64,000 bases of DNA from Chitinophagaceae bacterium (GTDB taxonomy: Bacteria > Bacteroidota > Bacteroidia > Chitinophagales > Chitinophagaceae), in the NCBI GenBank assembly GCA_004173235.1, contig SEAC01000006.1, positions 1 to 64,000 on the forward strand, read 5' to 3'. Positions 10,379 through 42,016 of this stretch are shown piece by piece (within the stretch, counting starts at the first letter, position 1; each line of letters begins with the position of its first letter). The notes under the pieces are model-generated. The model had not been told where the DNA came from and searched no databases. It saw only the letters and a program-made list of their open reading frames with translations. The translations under genes and the position numbers were made by a program.

Positions 10379-10505
10379 TTGGTTTATTAGTTTATTGGTT
10401 TATTGGGCGGGTTCGCGGCAACCTGTATCGTCGCGGACCCGTGGGTAGGTGGAAGCTTACCACTAAACCAGTGAACCAATAAACCAGTAAACCAGTAAAC
10501 CATTG
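10379..10505. repeat. Facing pair of octamer arrays (TTTATTGG / AACCARTA)
   Basis: Arm A (10379-10407) repeats TTGGTTTA three times. Arm B (10460-10505) has five AACCAGTA-like units, the reverse complement of arm A's family. About 52 bases separate them, so the RNA or DNA could form one long stem-loop. The same family occurs at 124-157 and 13233-13325. Confidence 0.75.
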
Positions 10506-10528
10506 TCATACTGAGGGCAGCCGAAGGG
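10504..10528. repeat. Diverged copy of the TGTCACCCTGAGCGCAGCCGA repeat
   Basis: Matches the dispersed element that interrupts xdhA (38476-38656 and 38990-39187) at 22 of 25 positions, here in an intergenic region. Confidence 0.6.
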
Positions 10529-35720: not shown

Positions 35721-38012
35721 TCAGATGCCGTAGAGGCCGAGGAGCACGCGCTCCGGCGTCATGGGGGATACATAGGGCATTTGCGCTTTCGGGTTGAAGG
35801 TCTTTATTGCATTGCGTAACGCGAAGTACGCACCGATGCCATACATCAGGGGCGGCTCGCCTACGGCCTTGGATCCCTTGATGGCCAGCGGGTGGCCGGT
35901 GGTTTGGAGGAAATGGATGTCGAGCACTTTGGGCACGGAATAGATGTCGGGGATCTTGTAGGTAGACAATGCGTTCGAAAGCAGTTTGCCGTCGGTGTTG
36001 TACACCACTTCTTCCATAGTCATCCAACCGATACCCTGCACGATGCCGCCTTCACACTGCCCGAGGTCGATAAGGGTGTTGATGCTCGATCCGAAATCGT
36101 GCACTACTTCAACCGCATCAAACACATAAGTGCCGCGGAGGCAATCCACCGTTACCTCGGTTAGTGCCGTGCCGTACACGTGGTAGGCAAAGGGATGCCC
36201 CTTCTCCTTTGTTTTATCGAAATGAATGTCGGGCGTGCTGTAATGTCCTTTTGCACTCAGGTTCACACGCTGGGTGAAAGCAGTGCGTACGAGCGTTGGC
36301 CAATCAATGCCCGCGGCGAGGCCATTGGTGAACACCTGCTCGTCGCGGATGCTGATGCTTGCTTCGTCTACGTTGGCTAGACCGGCTGCAACGGCCTTAA
36401 GCCGCTGCATCAGCTGGGTGCAACCATCTTCAACGGCTTTGCCATTGAGATCGGCGGTGGCTGATGCTGCCGAGGGAGACGTGTTGGCAACACGCGTCGT
36501 GTTCGTGCTTTCCACGCGCACGCGCGACGGAGCGATGCCCAATGCATCGGCAGCTACCTGCAGCATCTTGGTGTTGATGCCCTGGCCCATCTCCACCGCG
36601 CCGGTGCTCACGCTCACGGAGCCGTCCCAATAAATATGGATCAGCGAACGCGCCTGGTTCATCATGGTGTTGGTGAAGGAAATGCCGAAACAGATCGGCA
36701 TCAGCGACAGTCCTTTCTTTTTGAAAGGATGCGTTTCGTTGAAAGCATCCACTTGTATCCTGCGGTCTTCAAGATCGAAGCGCTGCACGGCTTCGTCCCA
36801 ACACTCTTCGGCGGCAACGCCCGCGGCAATCTGTCCATACGAAAACTCGTAGCCCTCCTTCATCAGGTTGCGGCGTTGCAGTTCGATCGTATCCAATCCG
36901 AGTGCGCGGGCGGCATGGTCGATGGCGCTTTCAATCATGAACATGCCCTGCGGACCGCCAAAACCCCGAAACGCCGTGTTGGGCGGGAGGTTGGTGCGGC
37001 AGGAGTGCGTGGTAAGATGCACGTGATCGATGCCATATGTGTTCGTACCGTGGAAAAGCGTACGCTCCTGGATGGCAGGCGAGAGGTCGGCCGCGGCACC
37101 GCCGTTCTGGTAATAAGTAGCCTCGAAAGCAACGATCTTATACGCTTCGTCCAGGCCGATCCTGTAATCGCATTTATACGGGTTGCGCTTGCCACTCATG
37201 CGCATGTCTTCCATGCGGTGCGGAACGCATTTGATGGGGCGGCGCAGGTGGTGCACGGCGAGCCCGCACATCGAAGCCCACATCGCGGCCTGGTCTTCTT
37301 TGCCGCCAAATCCGCCACCAAGGCGGGTTACGTCCACTTCCACGCAATGCATGCCGAGCCCCAGGAGGTGGGCTACGGTCTCCTGCACATGGCGCAGGCC
37401 CTGCGTGGAAGAGTACACACGGATGTTCTGGTTCTCGAGCGGGTAGGCATAAGCGCCGTGCGTTTCGAGGTACAGGTGTTCCTGTCCGCCGGTTTCCGCT
37501 TCGCCCTCGAACACGTGTGCGCATCCCGCAAAAGCGTTCTGCACATCGCCTTTTTTAAACTGCCGCGATCCACAAAGCAGTGCGCCCTGGGCGAATGCCT
37601 CTTTGGGGTCGGTAATGACAGGCAGCGGGTCTATCTCCACTTCAACCAGTGCCAGCGCTGCTTCTGCAGCATCCTCGCTTTCCGCTACGATGAGCAGCAG
37701 CGGCTGGCCGCGGAACAATACCTTGTCTTCGGCGAGCAAGGGCTCGTCGGCGATGATGCCGCCGATGTTGTTGTGACCGGGAATGTCTTTATACGAGAAC
37801 ACGCGCACAACGCCAGGCGCTGCGGCAGCGCGGCTGCCATCCAGCTTGCGGATCGTGCCGTGGGCGATGGGGCTGTCGAATATTTTGGCGAAGAGGGTTC
37901 CTTCGAGCACCGGCAGGTCGTCGAGGTAGAGCGAGCGGCCGGTGACGTGCCCGTTCGCGTCGATGTTGACGAGCGTGCGGGTGCTGCTTTCTGTTTTGGT
38001 GGCGGTGATCAT
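35721..38012 (-). CDS. xdhB: Xanthine dehydrogenase, molybdopterin-binding subunit
   Basis: A 763-residue catalytic subunit that holds the molybdenum cofactor and oxidises hypoxanthine and xanthine to urate. The a/b hammerhead domain at the N end (GRSLYLDDLPVLEGTLFAKI, GHNNIGG) is followed by MoCo-binding blocks QEHLYLETHGAYA, STQGLRHVQETVA, RLGGGFGGKEDQ, TAFRGFGGPQGMFMIE, GAVEMGQGINTKMLQVAAD and the C-terminal GSKAVGEPPLMYG with the catalytic Glu. Length is family-typical. It overlaps the end of xdhA by 4 bases (ATGA). Confidence 0.97.
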   Translation of the reverse strand: MITATKTESSTRTLVNIDANGHVTGRSLYLDDLPVLEGTLFAKIFDSPIAHGTIRKLDGSRAAAAPGVVRVFSYKDIPGHNNIGGIIADEPLLAEDKVLFRGQPLLLIVAESEDAAEAALALVEVEIDPLPVITDPKEAFAQGALLCGSRQFKKGDVQNAFAGCAHVFEGEAETGGQEHLYLETHGAYAYPLENQNIRVYSSTQGLRHVQETVAHLLGLGMHCVEVDVTRLGGGFGGKEDQAAMWASMCGLAVHHLRRPIKCVPHRMEDMRMSGKRNPYKCDYRIGLDEAYKIVAFEATYYQNGGAAADLSPAIQERTLFHGTNTYGIDHVHLTTHSCRTNLPPNTAFRGFGGPQGMFMIESAIDHAARALGLDTIELQRRNLMKEGYEFSYGQIAAGVAAEECWDEAVQRFDLEDRRIQVDAFNETHPFKKKGLSLMPICFGISFTNTMMNQARSLIHIYWDGSVSVSTGAVEMGQGINTKMLQVAADALGIAPSRVRVESTNTTRVANTSPSAASATADLNGKAVEDGCTQLMQRLKAVAAGLANVDEASISIRDEQVFTNGLAAGIDWPTLVRTAFTQRVNLSAKGHYSTPDIHFDKTKEKGHPFAYHVYGTALTEVTVDCLRGTYVFDAVEVVHDFGSSINTLIDLGQCEGGIVQGIGWMTMEEVVYNTDGKLLSNALSTYKIPDIYSVPKVLDIHFLQTTGHPLAIKGSKAVGEPPLMYGIGAYFALRNAIKTFNPKAQMPYVSPMTPERVLLGLYGI

Positions 38013-39781
38013 TGCGGGATCAGGTTGGTCACGAAATCGGGTGCGATGCTGAAGCTGTGGAAGTGGGCAGCGATCAGCTGGCGGAGCAGGAGGCGTTTGT
38101 AGGCTTCCGTGCCGCGTGCGTCGGAGATGGGAGTGACCTCGCCGTTGGCAATGCTGAGCGCCTCGCTGAGCGTGGCGGCATCGGGCACTTTCCCCTGCAG
38201 GTATGCCGAGGTCGCGGCGAGGTATTTCGGTGTGGGGCCGACGCCGCCTGCGGAAAGGTGTGCGAGTGCTACTACGCCATTGTCGTTGAGGCGCAGCTGG
38301 CAGGCCGTGTTGACCGACGCGATATCGAGGTAGGTGCGCTTCGATACTTTTTCGAAGTTGAAAAACGTGCCTTCCGCTGGTGGAATGAAGGAAATGGATT
38401 CCACGATCTCGTCGGCGCTTTTATCGATGCTCTTGTAGCCTTTGTAGAAGTCGCGGAGTCGTACGGTACGTCGGCCGCTTCCCTCTGTCCCCGTTTGGCT
38501 GCGCTCAGGGTGCTCCCCCGTCACCCTTCGGCTGCGCTCAGGGTGACAGTCGGCCTCGGTATTACTTTGGCTGCGGTCAGGGTGACAGTCGGCCTCTGTC
38601 TCACATACAACGCCGAGGGGTTGGGTCCCTGTGAGCGCAGTTGAACCGTGACCGGGGGCGCACAGCGTCAGCGTTGCGTCCAGAGCCAGCAGATAGATCG
38701 TCAGGTCGCCGATGGGAGAGGCGTTGACGAGGTTGCCGCCCAGCGTGGCCATGTTGCGGATGGGTGTGGAAGAAACAAGTTTGAGGTGTTGTGCGAGCTG
38801 CGGAAAGAAGCTGTTGACAACACCTGATTCCAGTATCTGCGTTACGGTAACAGCGCCACCAAGATGAAGAAAGCCGTGACTGTATTCTATGCTTTTCAGC
38901 GAAGGATCATCATGCACCAGGTATACATCGCTCTGCGCTACGGTGAGTGGCCGCTGCACGATGAGATCGGTGCCGCCACCGACGATCACGCTTCGGCTGC
39001 GCTCAGGGTGCTCCCCCGTCACCCTTCGGCTGCGCTCAGGGTGACAGGAAGCATCGCCCTCCATCCCCGTTTCGCTGCGCTCAGGGTGACAGGAAGCATC
39101 GCCCTCCATCCCCGTTTCGCTGCGCTCAGGGTGACAGTCGGCCTCCGACTCACCTGTCATGGTGAGCGCAGCCGAACCATGACCGGGCCTTACCCCTGCC
39201 GAGCGGGTACGAAGCGCGCGCAGCTTATCCTCGATGCCACTAAAGTAGGCGGGGATGAATCCTTCCTGTACCAGCCACGGAAGCGTATCCTCCGCAGGCT
39301 TGCCCTGGATGTCGTCCGTAATTCTACGGGCGGCGCGCTCGATGGATTTGTAGCCGGTGCAGCGGCAGATATTGCCGTCGATGGCGGCGATGGCCTCGTC
39401 GTAGTGGCGCGCCTTCGGGCTCATCACGAAACCCGTGAACGAGAGCACGAAGCCGAGGGTGCAAAATCCGCACTGCGTGCCGTTGGTTTCCACCATGGCC
39501 TGCTGCACGGGCGAGAGGCCCGCCATGTTGAGGCCTTCGATGCTTACGATATGCTTTCCTGCGGCGTTGCCCAGCGGCATGAGGCAGGAGGTGACCGAGC
39601 GATAGCGCAGGCTGCCTTCTTCGAAATCGCCGACCAGCACGGTACACGCGCCGCAGTCGCCTTCGCGGCAGCCGATCTTGGTGCCGGTGAGCCTTTTATG
39701 GTATCGTACGAAGTCGAGGAGCGTACCGCCTGGTGCGCGGTCGGTAGCCACCTCGGTATCGTTGAGGAGGAATCGGATCAT
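38009..39781 (-). CDS. xdhA: Xanthine dehydrogenase [2Fe-2S]/FAD subunit with repeat inserts
   Basis: A 590-residue subunit carrying two [2Fe-2S] clusters and FAD, which pass electrons from the Mo site to NAD+. The first cluster is GCREGDCGACTVL; the second is CGFCTLGF with CRCTGYKSIE. The FAD domain begins VIVGGGTDLIVQ and continues ATLGGNLVNASPIGD and LRDFYKGYKS. Two stretches do not belong to the family: CHPERS-rich inserts just before VIVGGG (DNA 38990-39187) and before the LRDFYKGY strand (38476-38656), together about 125 residues. The frame stays open through both. Both lie in a linker or surface-loop position, so the enzyme may still fold. The ATG at 39781 overlaps the deaminase stop by one base. 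Confidence 0.93.
   Translation of the reverse strand: MIRFLLNDTEVATDRAPGGTLLDFVRYHKRLTGTKIGCREGDCGACTVLVGDFEEGSLRYRSVTSCLMPLGNAAGKHIVSIEGLNMAGLSPVQQAMVETNGTQCGFCTLGFVLSFTGFVMSPKARHYDEAIAAIDGNICRCTGYKSIERAARRITDDIQGKPAEDTLPWLVQEGFIPAYFSGIEDKLRALRTRSAGVRPGHGSAALTMTGESEADCHPERSETGMEGDASCHPERSETGMEGDASCHPERSRRVTGEHPERSRSVIVGGGTDLIVQRPLTVAQSDVYLVHDDPSLKSIEYSHGFLHLGGAVTVTQILESGVVNSFFPQLAQHLKLVSSTPIRNMATLGGNLVNASPIGDLTIYLLALDATLTLCAPGHGSTALTGTQPLGVVCETEADCHPDRSQSNTEADCHPERSRRVTGEHPERSQTGTEGSGRRTVRLRDFYKGYKSIDKSADEIVESISFIPPAEGTFFNFEKVSKRTYLDIASVNTACQLRLNDNGVVALAHLSAGGVGPTPKYLAATSAYLQGKVPDAATLSEALSIANGEVTPISDARGTEAYKRLLLRQLIAAHFHSFSIAPDFVTNLIPQ
38476..38656. repeat. Repeat insert B inside xdhA
   Basis: Three direct copies of GCTGCGCTCAGGGTG (38498-38512, 38531-38545, and 38570-38584 with one change), then an inverted end GTGAGCGCAGTTGAACC..TGACCGG (38631-38654). 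It is translated in frame as CHPERS-type peptide. Confidence 0.85.
38990..39187. repeat. Repeat insert A inside xdhA
   Basis: Four direct copies of GCTGCGCTCAGGGTG (38996, 39029, 39074, 39119), with a perfect 45-base period (15 codons) between copies 2, 3 and 4. The far end is inverted: GTGAGCGCAGCCGAACCATGACCGG. Insert B has the same order of parts. Confidence 0.88.
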
Positions 39782-40257
39782 CAGTAGTCGGTTTTGATGG
39801 TGCTCTGAGTCCATTTGCGGAAGGCTTCGAGCGCTTCTTCGCGCATCAACTGGCGGGTGAAGAGGCTGCGCTGCTCTACGGGCTTTTCGAGTTCCTCGTA
39901 AATGAACTGGTCGTCGAACTGGATGGCGGCGGCGTCGCTCTTCGTGTTGGCGTAATACAGTTTGGCGGGGCGCGCCCAGTAGATGGCGCCGAGGCACATG
40001 GGGCAGGGTTCGCAACTGGTGTAGATCTCGCAGTCGTCGAGCTGGAAGGTGCCGAGCAGGCGGCAGGCTTCGCGGATGGCCATCACTTCGGCATGGGCGG
40101 TGGGGTCGTTGGTGCTGGTAACGGAGTTGGCCCCGCGGGCGATGATCTTTCCGTCTTTCACCACTACGGCGCCGAAGGGTCCGCCCTGGCCGCTCTCTAC
40201 GTTATCGAGGGATAGGCGGATGGCCTCCCGCATAAATTCATGCTCCTTCAGGTTCAT
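39781..40257 (-). CDS. guaD: Guanine deaminase (CDA-fold nucleoside deaminase)
   Basis: A 158-residue zinc deaminase of the cytidine-deaminase fold, similar in size and motifs to Bacillus subtilis GuaD, which turns guanine into xanthine. The zinc/catalytic motifs are PTAHAEVMAIREAC (HAE) and TSCEPCPMCLGAIYWA (PCxxC). The C-terminal swapped helix region is present (SLFTRQLMREEALEAFRKW). The ATG at 40257 is chosen over a TTG two codons earlier. It is first in the purine operon, feeding xanthine to XdhAB, which supports GuaD over TadA. A weak -7 box (TATATTTA, 40296-40303 on the minus strand) may start the operon. Confidence 0.9.
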   Translation of the reverse strand: MNLKEHEFMREAIRLSLDNVESGQGGPFGAVVVKDGKIIARGANSVTSTNDPTAHAEVMAIREACRLLGTFQLDDCEIYTSCEPCPMCLGAIYWARPAKLYYANTKSDAAAIQFDDQFIYEELEKPVEQRSLFTRQLMREEALEAFRKWTQSTIKTDY

Positions 40258-40378
40258 AAGCAAGCGCTGTTCTGGGTTGATGCAGAGTAAGGCGTTAAAT
40301 ATAAGAAAACCGTTGGGAGTTTCTCGATTTGGCCGGCCGTGCGCCCATGCAGTGGCCGTTCGCAGGTGGTAGCATATA

Positions 40379-40551
40379 GCGGCGCGATGCGCCGCGAGCT
40401 TTGTTCGTGTCGCCTCCTCCGGGGGCTAACACATAGCGGCGCGATGCGCCGCGCGAGAGATGGGTGTCGTGGCCGCACCTCGTTCCGCATAGCGGAACGC
40501 TGTGTTAGGCAACGAGGAATCAATCCATCTCCCCGTAGCGCATAGCGCTAC
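40379..40551. repeat. REP-like palindromes upstream of the RAYT gene
   Basis: Four palindromes: GCGGCGC-GAT-GCGCCGC at 40379-40395 and again at 40436-40452 (both preceded by ATA), CGTTCCGC-ATA-GCGGAACG at 40481-40499, and GTAGCGC-ATA-GCGCTAC at 40535-40551. A matching GCGGCGC-TAC-GCGCCGC lies at 41141-41157, on the other side of the transposase gene. The remainder of 40258-40672 holds no gene; a further weak hairpin (CCCGC/GCGGG) is near 40584-40599. Confidence 0.8.
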
Positions 40552-40672
40552 TATGTGCCACGGGCCGCATTGTCGGGATTTTTCCCGCCGAATCGCGGGC
40601 AAGTTCCCCCGAAATCCTGGCCTTTTCCCCCTTGCGCTGTTTTGTGGTGTGCAGACCTTTGGATAAAAACCG

Positions 40673-41131
40673 ATGGCGAACACCTACACCCAATCTGCCG
40701 TGCACCTCGTCTTCTCACCAAAATACCGGCAAGCGCTGATCCTCCCCTCATTTCGCGAAGAAACGCAGCGGTATATGACGGGCACCATCAAAGGGATGGG
40801 CCACCTGCCCATCGCCATTTACGCGATGCCCGACCATGTGCACCTGCTGTTCGCCATGTCGATGACGATGGCGCCGCAACAGATCGTGCAGGTGTTGAAG
40901 GCGGAAACGACGAAGTGGATCAAGGATCGCGGGCTTTCACCCCAGTTTCAGTGGCAAAGGGGTTATGGATGGTTTCACGTCAGCGCCCGCGGCATCGACG
41001 CCGTGGCGAGCTACATCCGAACGCAGCCGGAACATCATCGCAAGAAACCGTTTCTCAAGGAATACGAGCTTTTGCTGGAGGAGAATGGTGTGGCGTTTGA
41101 TCCTCTCTACCTTTTCACCGAGCCCGAGTGA
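40673..41131 (+). mobile_element. REP-associated tyrosine transposase (RAYT, Y1/HUH)
   Basis: A 152-residue single-domain Y1 transposase of the IS200/IS605-related HUH family. The metal-binding HUH motif is MPDHVHLLFAM, the catalytic tyrosine is likely the one in VASYIRTQPEHHRKK, and the N end YTQSAVHLVFSPKYR is family-typical. Such proteins nick single-stranded DNA at hairpins. No tnpB gene or IS ends are present. Instead, near-identical GC palindromes lie on both sides (40379-40452 and 41141-41157), which is the layout of a domesticated RAYT that spreads REP elements. It probably reached this intergenic site by transfer. Confidence 0.88.
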
Positions 41132-41140
41132 AGGCACATG

Positions 41141-41157
41141 GCGGCGCTACGCGCCGC
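41141..41157. repeat. REP-like palindrome downstream of the RAYT gene
   Basis: GCGGCGC-TAC-GCGCCGC, the same arms as the two upstream copies, followed by a GGCT-TAT-AGCC hairpin at 41165-41175. Confidence 0.75.
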
Positions 41158-41194
41158 GAATTCGGGCTTATAGCCGCACCGGTTGTGTTAAGGC

Positions 41195-42016
41195 ATGGGG
41201 TGCGATGTAACGCGGGAGAAAAGACCGGTAACGCTCTCCTGCGATGCGCACGAACGGGGGCTTTCCTTACCTTCCGGCGTGCTCCTGATTGTAATACTGA
41301 TCGTCGCCCTGGCTGCAATTGCGGTGCTGCTCCGGAAGCTAACGCCGGCGGGCGGGGCTGCCGGTGCGGTCGTAGCTTGGGCGCTTTATTCAGGCCTCGA
41401 TTATCCGGGCCTCGCTTTGCTGGGCCTTTTCTTCATCCTCGGCACGCTCGCTACTTCCTATCGAAAGAAGTGGAAAGAAAAGGCGGGACTGCGGGATAAC
41501 ATCGTTGGCAGAAGGGCGGTGCAGGTATGGGCCAATGGCGGCGTGGCTGCGGTGTGCGCACTGGGAGCGGTTTTGACGCGCATGTGGCAACACGGCGAAT
41601 GCATGCCCGGCCGCCATTTGGAACAGGGACTGCAACTGGCGGCAGCCGCGGCACTCTCTTCTGCCACTGCCGATACGCTAGCCTCGGAGCTGGGTAATGC
41701 CTGGGGCAGCCGATACATCAACATACGCAGCCTGCGCCGCGATGTGCGCGGTGTGGATGGCGCCATCAGCCTTGAAGGAAGCCTGGCCGGACTTGCAGGC
41801 AGCGTGCTCATTGCAACTATTTATTTCTTCCTGCTGAAAAACTCTTTAGGTGCGGCACTCCTCCTTGTGGCCGCCGGCACGTTGGGCAATGCCGCCGACT
41901 CGTGGCTGGGCGCCACGTTGCAGCGGCGCGGCATCCTGAACAATGATGCGGTCAACTTTTGCAACACGCTGTTGGCAGCTCTTTTTGCCGGCGGTTGTTT
42001 TCTCCTATTCGGTTAG
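41195..42016 (+). CDS. DUF92 family membrane protein
   Basis: A 273-residue integral membrane protein of the DUF92/TIGR00297 family. About six helices are visible, with the family's conserved segments RKLTPAGGAAGAVVAWALY, LGTLATSYRKKWKEK, AAALSSATADTLASELG, EGSLAGLAGSVLIA and GTLGNAADSWLGATLQRRG. A plant and archaeal relative acts in lipid-linked (phytyl-phosphate) metabolism, so a CTP-dependent prenyl-phosphate kinase role is possible but unproven. The first 28 residues are not family-like; a GTG at 41279 may be the true start. Its last 12 bases overlap the convergent caspase gene. Confidence 0.85.
   Translation: MGCDVTREKRPVTLSCDAHERGLSLPSGVLLIVILIVALAAIAVLLRKLTPAGGAAGAVVAWALYSGLDYPGLALLGLFFILGTLATSYRKKWKEKAGLRDNIVGRRAVQVWANGGVAAVCALGAVLTRMWQHGECMPGRHLEQGLQLAAAAALSSATADTLASELGNAWGSRYINIRSLRRDVRGVDGAISLEGSLAGLAGSVLIATIYFFLLKNSLGAALLLVAAGTLGNAADSWLGATLQRRGILNNDAVNFCNTLLAALFAGGCFLLFG

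Follow-up and report, generated by a model that had tools for sequence, protein, structure and literature searches.

In-frame copies of a REP-like palindrome at two sites of xdhA in a Chitinophagaceae bacterium

The gene for the small subunit of xanthine dehydrogenase in the 64,000-nucleotide stretch of DNA analysed here (the window) carries two blocks of a palindromic repeat, and its reading frame runs through both of them. This raises the questions of how one gene came to hold two such blocks of similar layout, and what they mean for the enzyme. A first-pass annotation had left the choice between insertion tolerance and a use of the repeat at the protein level. We addressed these questions by comparison with related genomes, by analysis of the repeat family as a whole, and by modelling of the protein.

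Two inserts in xdhA and in-frame copies in other genes

The gene, its partner and the two inserts were delimited as follows:

38009-39781, minus strand: xdhA, xanthine dehydrogenase small (FeS/FAD) subunit, 590 amino acids with both inserts (Pfam and TIGR02963)
35721-38012, minus strand: xdhB, molybdopterin subunit, open and without inserts, adjoining xdhA (Pfam/NCBIfam profiles)
38990-39208, minus strand: site 1 insert, residues 192-264 approximately, in the FeS-FAD interdomain linker (tblastn segments, alignments and pLDDT)
38483-38659, minus strand: site 2 insert, residues 375-433 approximately, in a loop between two strands of the FAD-domain region (tblastn segments, alignments and pLDDT)

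The Pfam domains of XdhA follow one another in the order Fer2, Fer2_2, FAD_binding_5 and CO_deh_flav_C, and the TIGR02963 model xanthine_xdhA matches the protein with 332 bits, below its cut-off of 467. Both blocks reported in the first pass were found, and the open reading frame continues over all 590 codons. The two nearest useful relatives, Flaviaesturariibacter aridisoli (G012) and F. flavus (G010), which belong to the same genus, served for comparison. Their XdhA has 471 residues, which gives a net gain of 119; the earlier figure of about 125 added residues was thus close in size but not exact. Both sites are empty in the two relatives, and in F. aridisoli site 1 measures 12 residues (tblastn segments and alignments) and site 2 a single residue (tblastn segments).

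An AlphaFold model of XdhA, built from 40 sequences, has segments of at least three residues with pLDDT below 50 only at positions 198-259, between a helix and a strand, and 382-427, between the strands 370-374 and 437-441. The best PDB matches of the model are the R. capsulatus XDH structures 1jro and 2w3r. The placement of the inserts at loop positions, proposed from the sequence, agrees with this model, in which they are predicted to be disordered on an XDH-like fold.

As a coding host xdhA is not alone: other genes of this genome and of the two nearest relatives have in-frame copies as well. Besides xdhA, further genes of this genome contain the repeat in frame: dnaE2 (error-prone polymerase; NF004225 above its cut-off), one for an RNA methyltransferase of the SpoU family, and a metalloprotease gene, whose product matches DUF4953 Met-zincin and DUF5117 in Pfam but no family in NCBIfam. 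In F. aridisoli the dnaE2 linker occupied here has a single copy, the methyltransferase is without insert, and metG contains one copy ahead of the C-terminal tRNA-binding domain. In F. flavus, repeats occupy the corresponding loop of the metalloprotease. The copies in the methyltransferase, the metalloprotease and metG are located between Pfam domains, and the DnaE2 insert stands immediately before the matched part of HHH_6 (Pfam). We did not retain the metG linker as a clean insertion, because its length is variable among 11 aligned genomes.

Two observations were made beside these genes. The dnaE2 linker of F. flavus (L192) holds a different repeat-like peptide (SPSPQRRGE, SPSPTGRGG); as unlike repeat peptides occupy this linker across species, the joint seems to be a point open to insertion in general. 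In the metG of the genome studied (L317, G000:C14:249572-251656, minus strand), 39 residues including GSDEHG are missing in an in-frame gap of 117 nt. This stretch is present in the other 10 genomes aligned, and the gap is either an assembly fault or a striking deletion.

The palindrome family and its place among known repeats

The 15-mer GCTGCGCTCAGGGTG, taken from the first-pass annotation, occurs at 57 places in the genome with at most one mismatch (reversed control 0), and the longer pattern TCGGCTGCGCTCANNNTGACA at 148 places with at most three mismatches (control 2). The dispersal claimed for the repeat is therefore far above chance. At no more than two mismatches TCGGCTGCGCTCANNNTGACA has 129 copies here, 70 in F. 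aridisoli and 35 in F. flavus, and the other 35 of the 38 genomes have 0 to 6 each. A diverged copy announced at 10504 is real and differs by one mismatch:

10504-10524, minus strand: diverged palindrome copy, outside open reading frames of at least 100 codons (pattern search)

The stem is maintained by covariation. Among 259 copies drawn from three genomes, the triplets that flank the loop are fully complementary in 164, whereas 1000 shuffles never gave more than 41. After removal of duplicates they are so in 143 of 226 distinct copies (maximum 40 in 2000 shuffles), which means that the sequence of the stem changes and yet remains paired. Stem pairs 1-4 are mostly Watson-Crick (203, 200, 202 and 189 of 259), with pairs 2-4 clearly above the values expected under independence (163, 106 and 75). 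Pairs 5-9 are Watson-Crick in 108, 99, 82, 99 and 40 of the 259 copies, where 98, 96, 82, 101 and 41 were expected. The covarying stem therefore amounts to about 4 bp, and the conserved stretch between the arms to 12 nt. Outside the stem, the conserved TGACA end lacks a pairing partner; its degree of conservation is inflated by the selection of the 259 copies, which favoured that end. Among 203 copies picked by the loop alone, the end reads T in 160, G in 174, A in 173, C in 180 and A in 167.

One position of the loop varies freely (G 117, A 34, T 13 and C 12; n = 176). A GCG-N-AGC mini-hairpin is described, in the part of the publication used here, as a very stable DNA structure (PMC4686876). 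That the loop contains such a turn, with the free position as its middle, is a suggestion only and is based on this single variable position. On folding, both strands of the palindrome have similar energy. An Rfam search of positions 38000-41500 gave no family at threshold, and its three matches (E 3.7 to 4.5) were far below.

Among 49 repeat clusters, 12 contain both orientations, 14 have at least two units facing the same way, and the other 23 are single. Of 57 clusters examined (a set of 49 and one of 8, among the matches listed, which were the first 100 out of 148 and out of 125 places), 5 are in genes confirmed by homology, and the rest are only partly homology-tested. Several open reading frames that overlap repeats (L093, L097, L061, L086 and similar ones) were set aside as antisense or upstream gene extensions on the basis of weak codon scores and inspection by eye.

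Repetitive extragenic palindromic sequences (REPs) are divided by their terminal tags into GTAG and CGTC types, the latter often with TGTC (Di Nocera et al. 2013, PMC3733652). According to the sections of that survey drawn on here, CGTC REPs occur in Bacteroidetes among others, are often paired and apparently lack a dedicated transposase; their stems measure 8-9 bp and their loops 4-5 nt, and they stand mainly as opposite-facing dimers, clusters being rare. The same sections describe in-frame genic copies, including DnaE2, genes that were hit twice, and genic clusters that encode 43 to 82 residues. The occurrence of REPs in frame within genes, with DnaE2 among them, has thus been published before, and the xdhA case is the same phenomenon. 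As far as these sections allow a comparison, our family resembles the CGTC/TGTC REPs as a small palindrome with a TGTC-type end outside the stem and with in-frame genic copies including DnaE2, but it differs in its covarying stem of about 4 bp instead of 8-9 bp, in a conserved stretch of 12 nt in place of a loop of 4-5 nt, and perhaps in its tandem arrays, which are common here. Because stem and loop differ, we do not place it in a named CGTC family.

The likeness to the GTAG REPs, which are mobilised by RAYT transposases (PMC3733652, same sections), comprises short hairpins, often in opposite-facing pairs, a high copy number and IS200-like Y1 genes in the genome; the conserved end, in contrast, is TGTCA/TGACA and not GTAG. 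As described in the part of the source consulted, Rickettsia palindromic elements (RPE), an older example, are inserted in frame in unrelated genes, whose products remain functional, and encode a conserved peptide (PMC10969869). Four genes carry in-frame copies here, and the likeness ends at the peptide, as three genes use three frames of the repeat. In the literature searched, we found no paper containing the exact repeat strings or CHPERSEG, none on palindromic repeats in Flaviaesturariibacter, and none on intragenic repetitive extragenic palindromic sequences in Chitinophag- taxa.

Architecture and origin of the two blocks

Each block consists of one hairpin in one direction followed by an array that faces the opposite way:

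39153-39187, minus strand: leading hairpin of site 1 with a GTCATGGT / ACCATGAC stem, facing the other way from the later units
38996-39133, minus strand: array of four palindrome units at site 1, spacings 33, 45 and 45
38625-38657, minus strand: leading hairpin of site 2, degenerate
38498-38584, minus strand: array of three palindrome units at site 2, spacings 33 and 39

Exact matches to GCTGCGCTCAGGGTG are located at 38996, 39029, 39074 and 39119 in site 1 and at 38498 and 38531 in site 2, where a third, at 38570, has one mismatch. The closing ends, 38631-38656 and 39162-39187, are 88% alike. The layout originally described, four and three direct copies followed by an inverted end, is confirmed by these positions. 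A period of 45 bases, also described, applies within 39029-39119; the remaining spacings are 33, 33 and 39, and all are multiples of three. The same arrangement of a hairpin and an opposite array recurs at dnaE2 and also in positions that lie outside recognised genes.

Frame keeping is seen in the arrays of xdhA and dnaE2. There, neighbouring units of the same direction are spaced by multiples of three in 8 of 8 cases, compared with 13 of 64 elsewhere; of the places outside genes, a part is proven to be intergenic. As the units of one array are not independent, the test is a small one; with each spacing counted once per array under rough binning, the ratio is 6 of 6 versus 11 of 36 (p 0.002). 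The metalloprotease has two hairpins, 27 bases apart.

The two xdhA blocks have an identical run of 53 nt in common. A 24-mer inside this run was found with up to three mismatches at two places in the whole assembly, which is 92% complete, both of them in xdhA (control 0):

39001-39024, minus strand: 24-nt junction copy of site 1 (whole-assembly search)
38503-38526, minus strand: 24-nt junction copy of site 2 (whole-assembly search)

Because this 24-mer is private to xdhA and lies within 53 shared bases, one block probably arose as a copy of the other. The sequence thus points to one insertion followed by a local copy, and the double entry, formerly read as two separate events, probably does not represent independent ones. 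Two independent landings of dispersed copies would more easily explain that the blocks are unlike in the number of units and in their leading hairpins, but given the 53-nt identity and the confinement of the 24-mer to these two places, we regard them as rather unlikely.

The window also contains a transposase gene:

40673-41131, plus strand: IS200-like Y1 transposase (Pfam Y1_Tnp; NCBIfam transpos_IS200, 61.2 bits, cut-off 55)

It was not accepted as the driver of the family, since the closest palindrome copies are those of xdhA, at a distance of about 1.5 kb. We detected three Y1 transposases in this genome, and the palindrome family is tied to none of them. Among 30 Y1 genes read from a longer list, a clear copy lies downstream of two, which are orthologous (L100 here and L293 in F. 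aridisoli) and RAYT-like. GTAG REP/RAYT elements are also named REPIN. This pair is a candidate only: Y1 genes are also present in repeat-poor genomes, and palindromes of another kind, GTAGCCGGG, stand beside both. The GTAGCCGGG palindromes beside or after L100 (after 1950) and L293 apparently form a second REP-like family. A repetitive open reading frame with ASPLERISIGRPIGQQALPLHW-type repeats is located just upstream of another Y1 transposase (L099, 778-1329).

Constraint on XdhA and meaning of the inserts

Outside the inserts, dN/dS of xdhA towards F. aridisoli is about 0.2 (0.164 over 0.795). The ratio of nonsynonymous to synonymous changes is 27.5 to 45.5 on this branch versus 8.5 to 43.5 on that of F. 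aridisoli (Fisher p about 0.01), and by whole codons 22 to 37 versus 6 to 41 (p 0.007). Neither xdhB (28.5 to 121.5 on this branch, 20 to 82 in F. aridisoli; p 0.87) nor dnaE2 (72 to 132 and 36.3 to 84.7; p 0.33) differs significantly between the branches. Most of the changed columns of XdhA are variable, and the protein keeps the eight invariant cysteines, which presumably hold the FeS clusters. The excess of amino-acid change tells against a purely neutral interpretation and weighs against the account favoured below: constraint on xdhA has weakened, and activity may be reduced.

This excess, seen in xdhA and not in xdhB, is also what would be expected if the inserts had damaged XdhA and the gene were becoming a pseudogene. 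We hold such decay to be unlikely, because 590 codons are open, the cysteines are retained, the changes affect mostly variable columns, and dN/dS is still near 0.2; in our reading of these substitutions, XdhA probably works under looser constraint. An artefact, in which repeat copies were wrongly joined into xdhA during assembly, would deserve attention as the inserts are known from assembled sequence alone and as metG of the same assembly is without 39 conserved residues. However, the frame is preserved through both blocks, which have in common a junction absent from the rest of the assembly, and in-gene copies are also present in F. aridisoli and F. flavus, whose genomes were assembled separately, so that we judge this explanation very unlikely.

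The remaining alternatives ascribe a role to the repeat. Recruitment of the CHPERS peptide in XdhA for binding, localisation or regulation would fit with two open inserts in the same CHPERS frame, and with the use of the same places in two species at the dnaE2 linker (shared with F. aridisoli) and the metalloprotease loop (shared with F. flavus). A common frame is, however, expected anyway if one block is a copy of the other, and elsewhere the repeat is translated in different frames (VTLSAAEG in dnaE2, HPSATLRVTG in the methyltransferase), so that no peptide is conserved and a tolerated linker insertion is favoured over a shared peptide function. In addition, the xdhA inserts are predicted to be disordered, and the strings HPERS and SAAEG occurred in none of the 52 xdhA loci read, out of 80 returned and with both relatives among the 52. 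A peptide function therefore seems to us highly unlikely. We give hardly any credence to a role in the RNA, with hairpins in the xdhA mRNA serving as a translational pause or a processing site. The block at site 1 does fold better than shuffled sequences (z -4.6, single-stranded DNA parameters), but site 2 is less marked (z -1.8, with 7 of 200 shuffles equally good), Rfam contributed no family at threshold over the region, and the relatives do without the blocks. Between the two options first proposed, insertion tolerance fits best: the empty sites, the predicted disorder and the kept cysteines speak for it, while protein-level use is not borne out by a shared peptide.

We therefore return to tolerated insertion with local copying, and consider the following account, taken as a whole, likely. 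A REP-like palindrome with a conserved TGTCA end would have multiplied in this lineage, mostly outside recognised genes and occasionally landing inside one, and the genic copies that survived would be those in frame, at interdomain linkers or surface loops. A composite element, a hairpin facing an array of opposite hairpins, would have entered one site of xdhA, and part of it would then have been copied to the second site about 500 bases away, with units gained or lost in steps that keep the frame; this order of events is the one we infer. An HUH-type transposase acting in trans may have spread the palindrome by way of single-stranded DNA. XdhA with its two disordered loops most likely still works, under looser constraint.

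With its clear stem covariation, the Flaviaesturariibacter family joins the few known cases of in-frame palindrome insertion, and it provides a case of apparent copying of a repeat block from one site to another inside a single gene. As relatives without the xdhA inserts exist, what a repeat insertion does to an assayable enzyme is accessible to experiment. A farther-reaching view, which we consider improbable, is that the palindrome acts in this genus as a renewable source of flexible linkers, which would be accepted again at the same joints (dnaE2, metalloprotease) and would grow and shrink in frame-keeping steps while selection tunes their length. If this were true, linker length in housekeeping enzymes would be tunable by selection by means of a palindrome.
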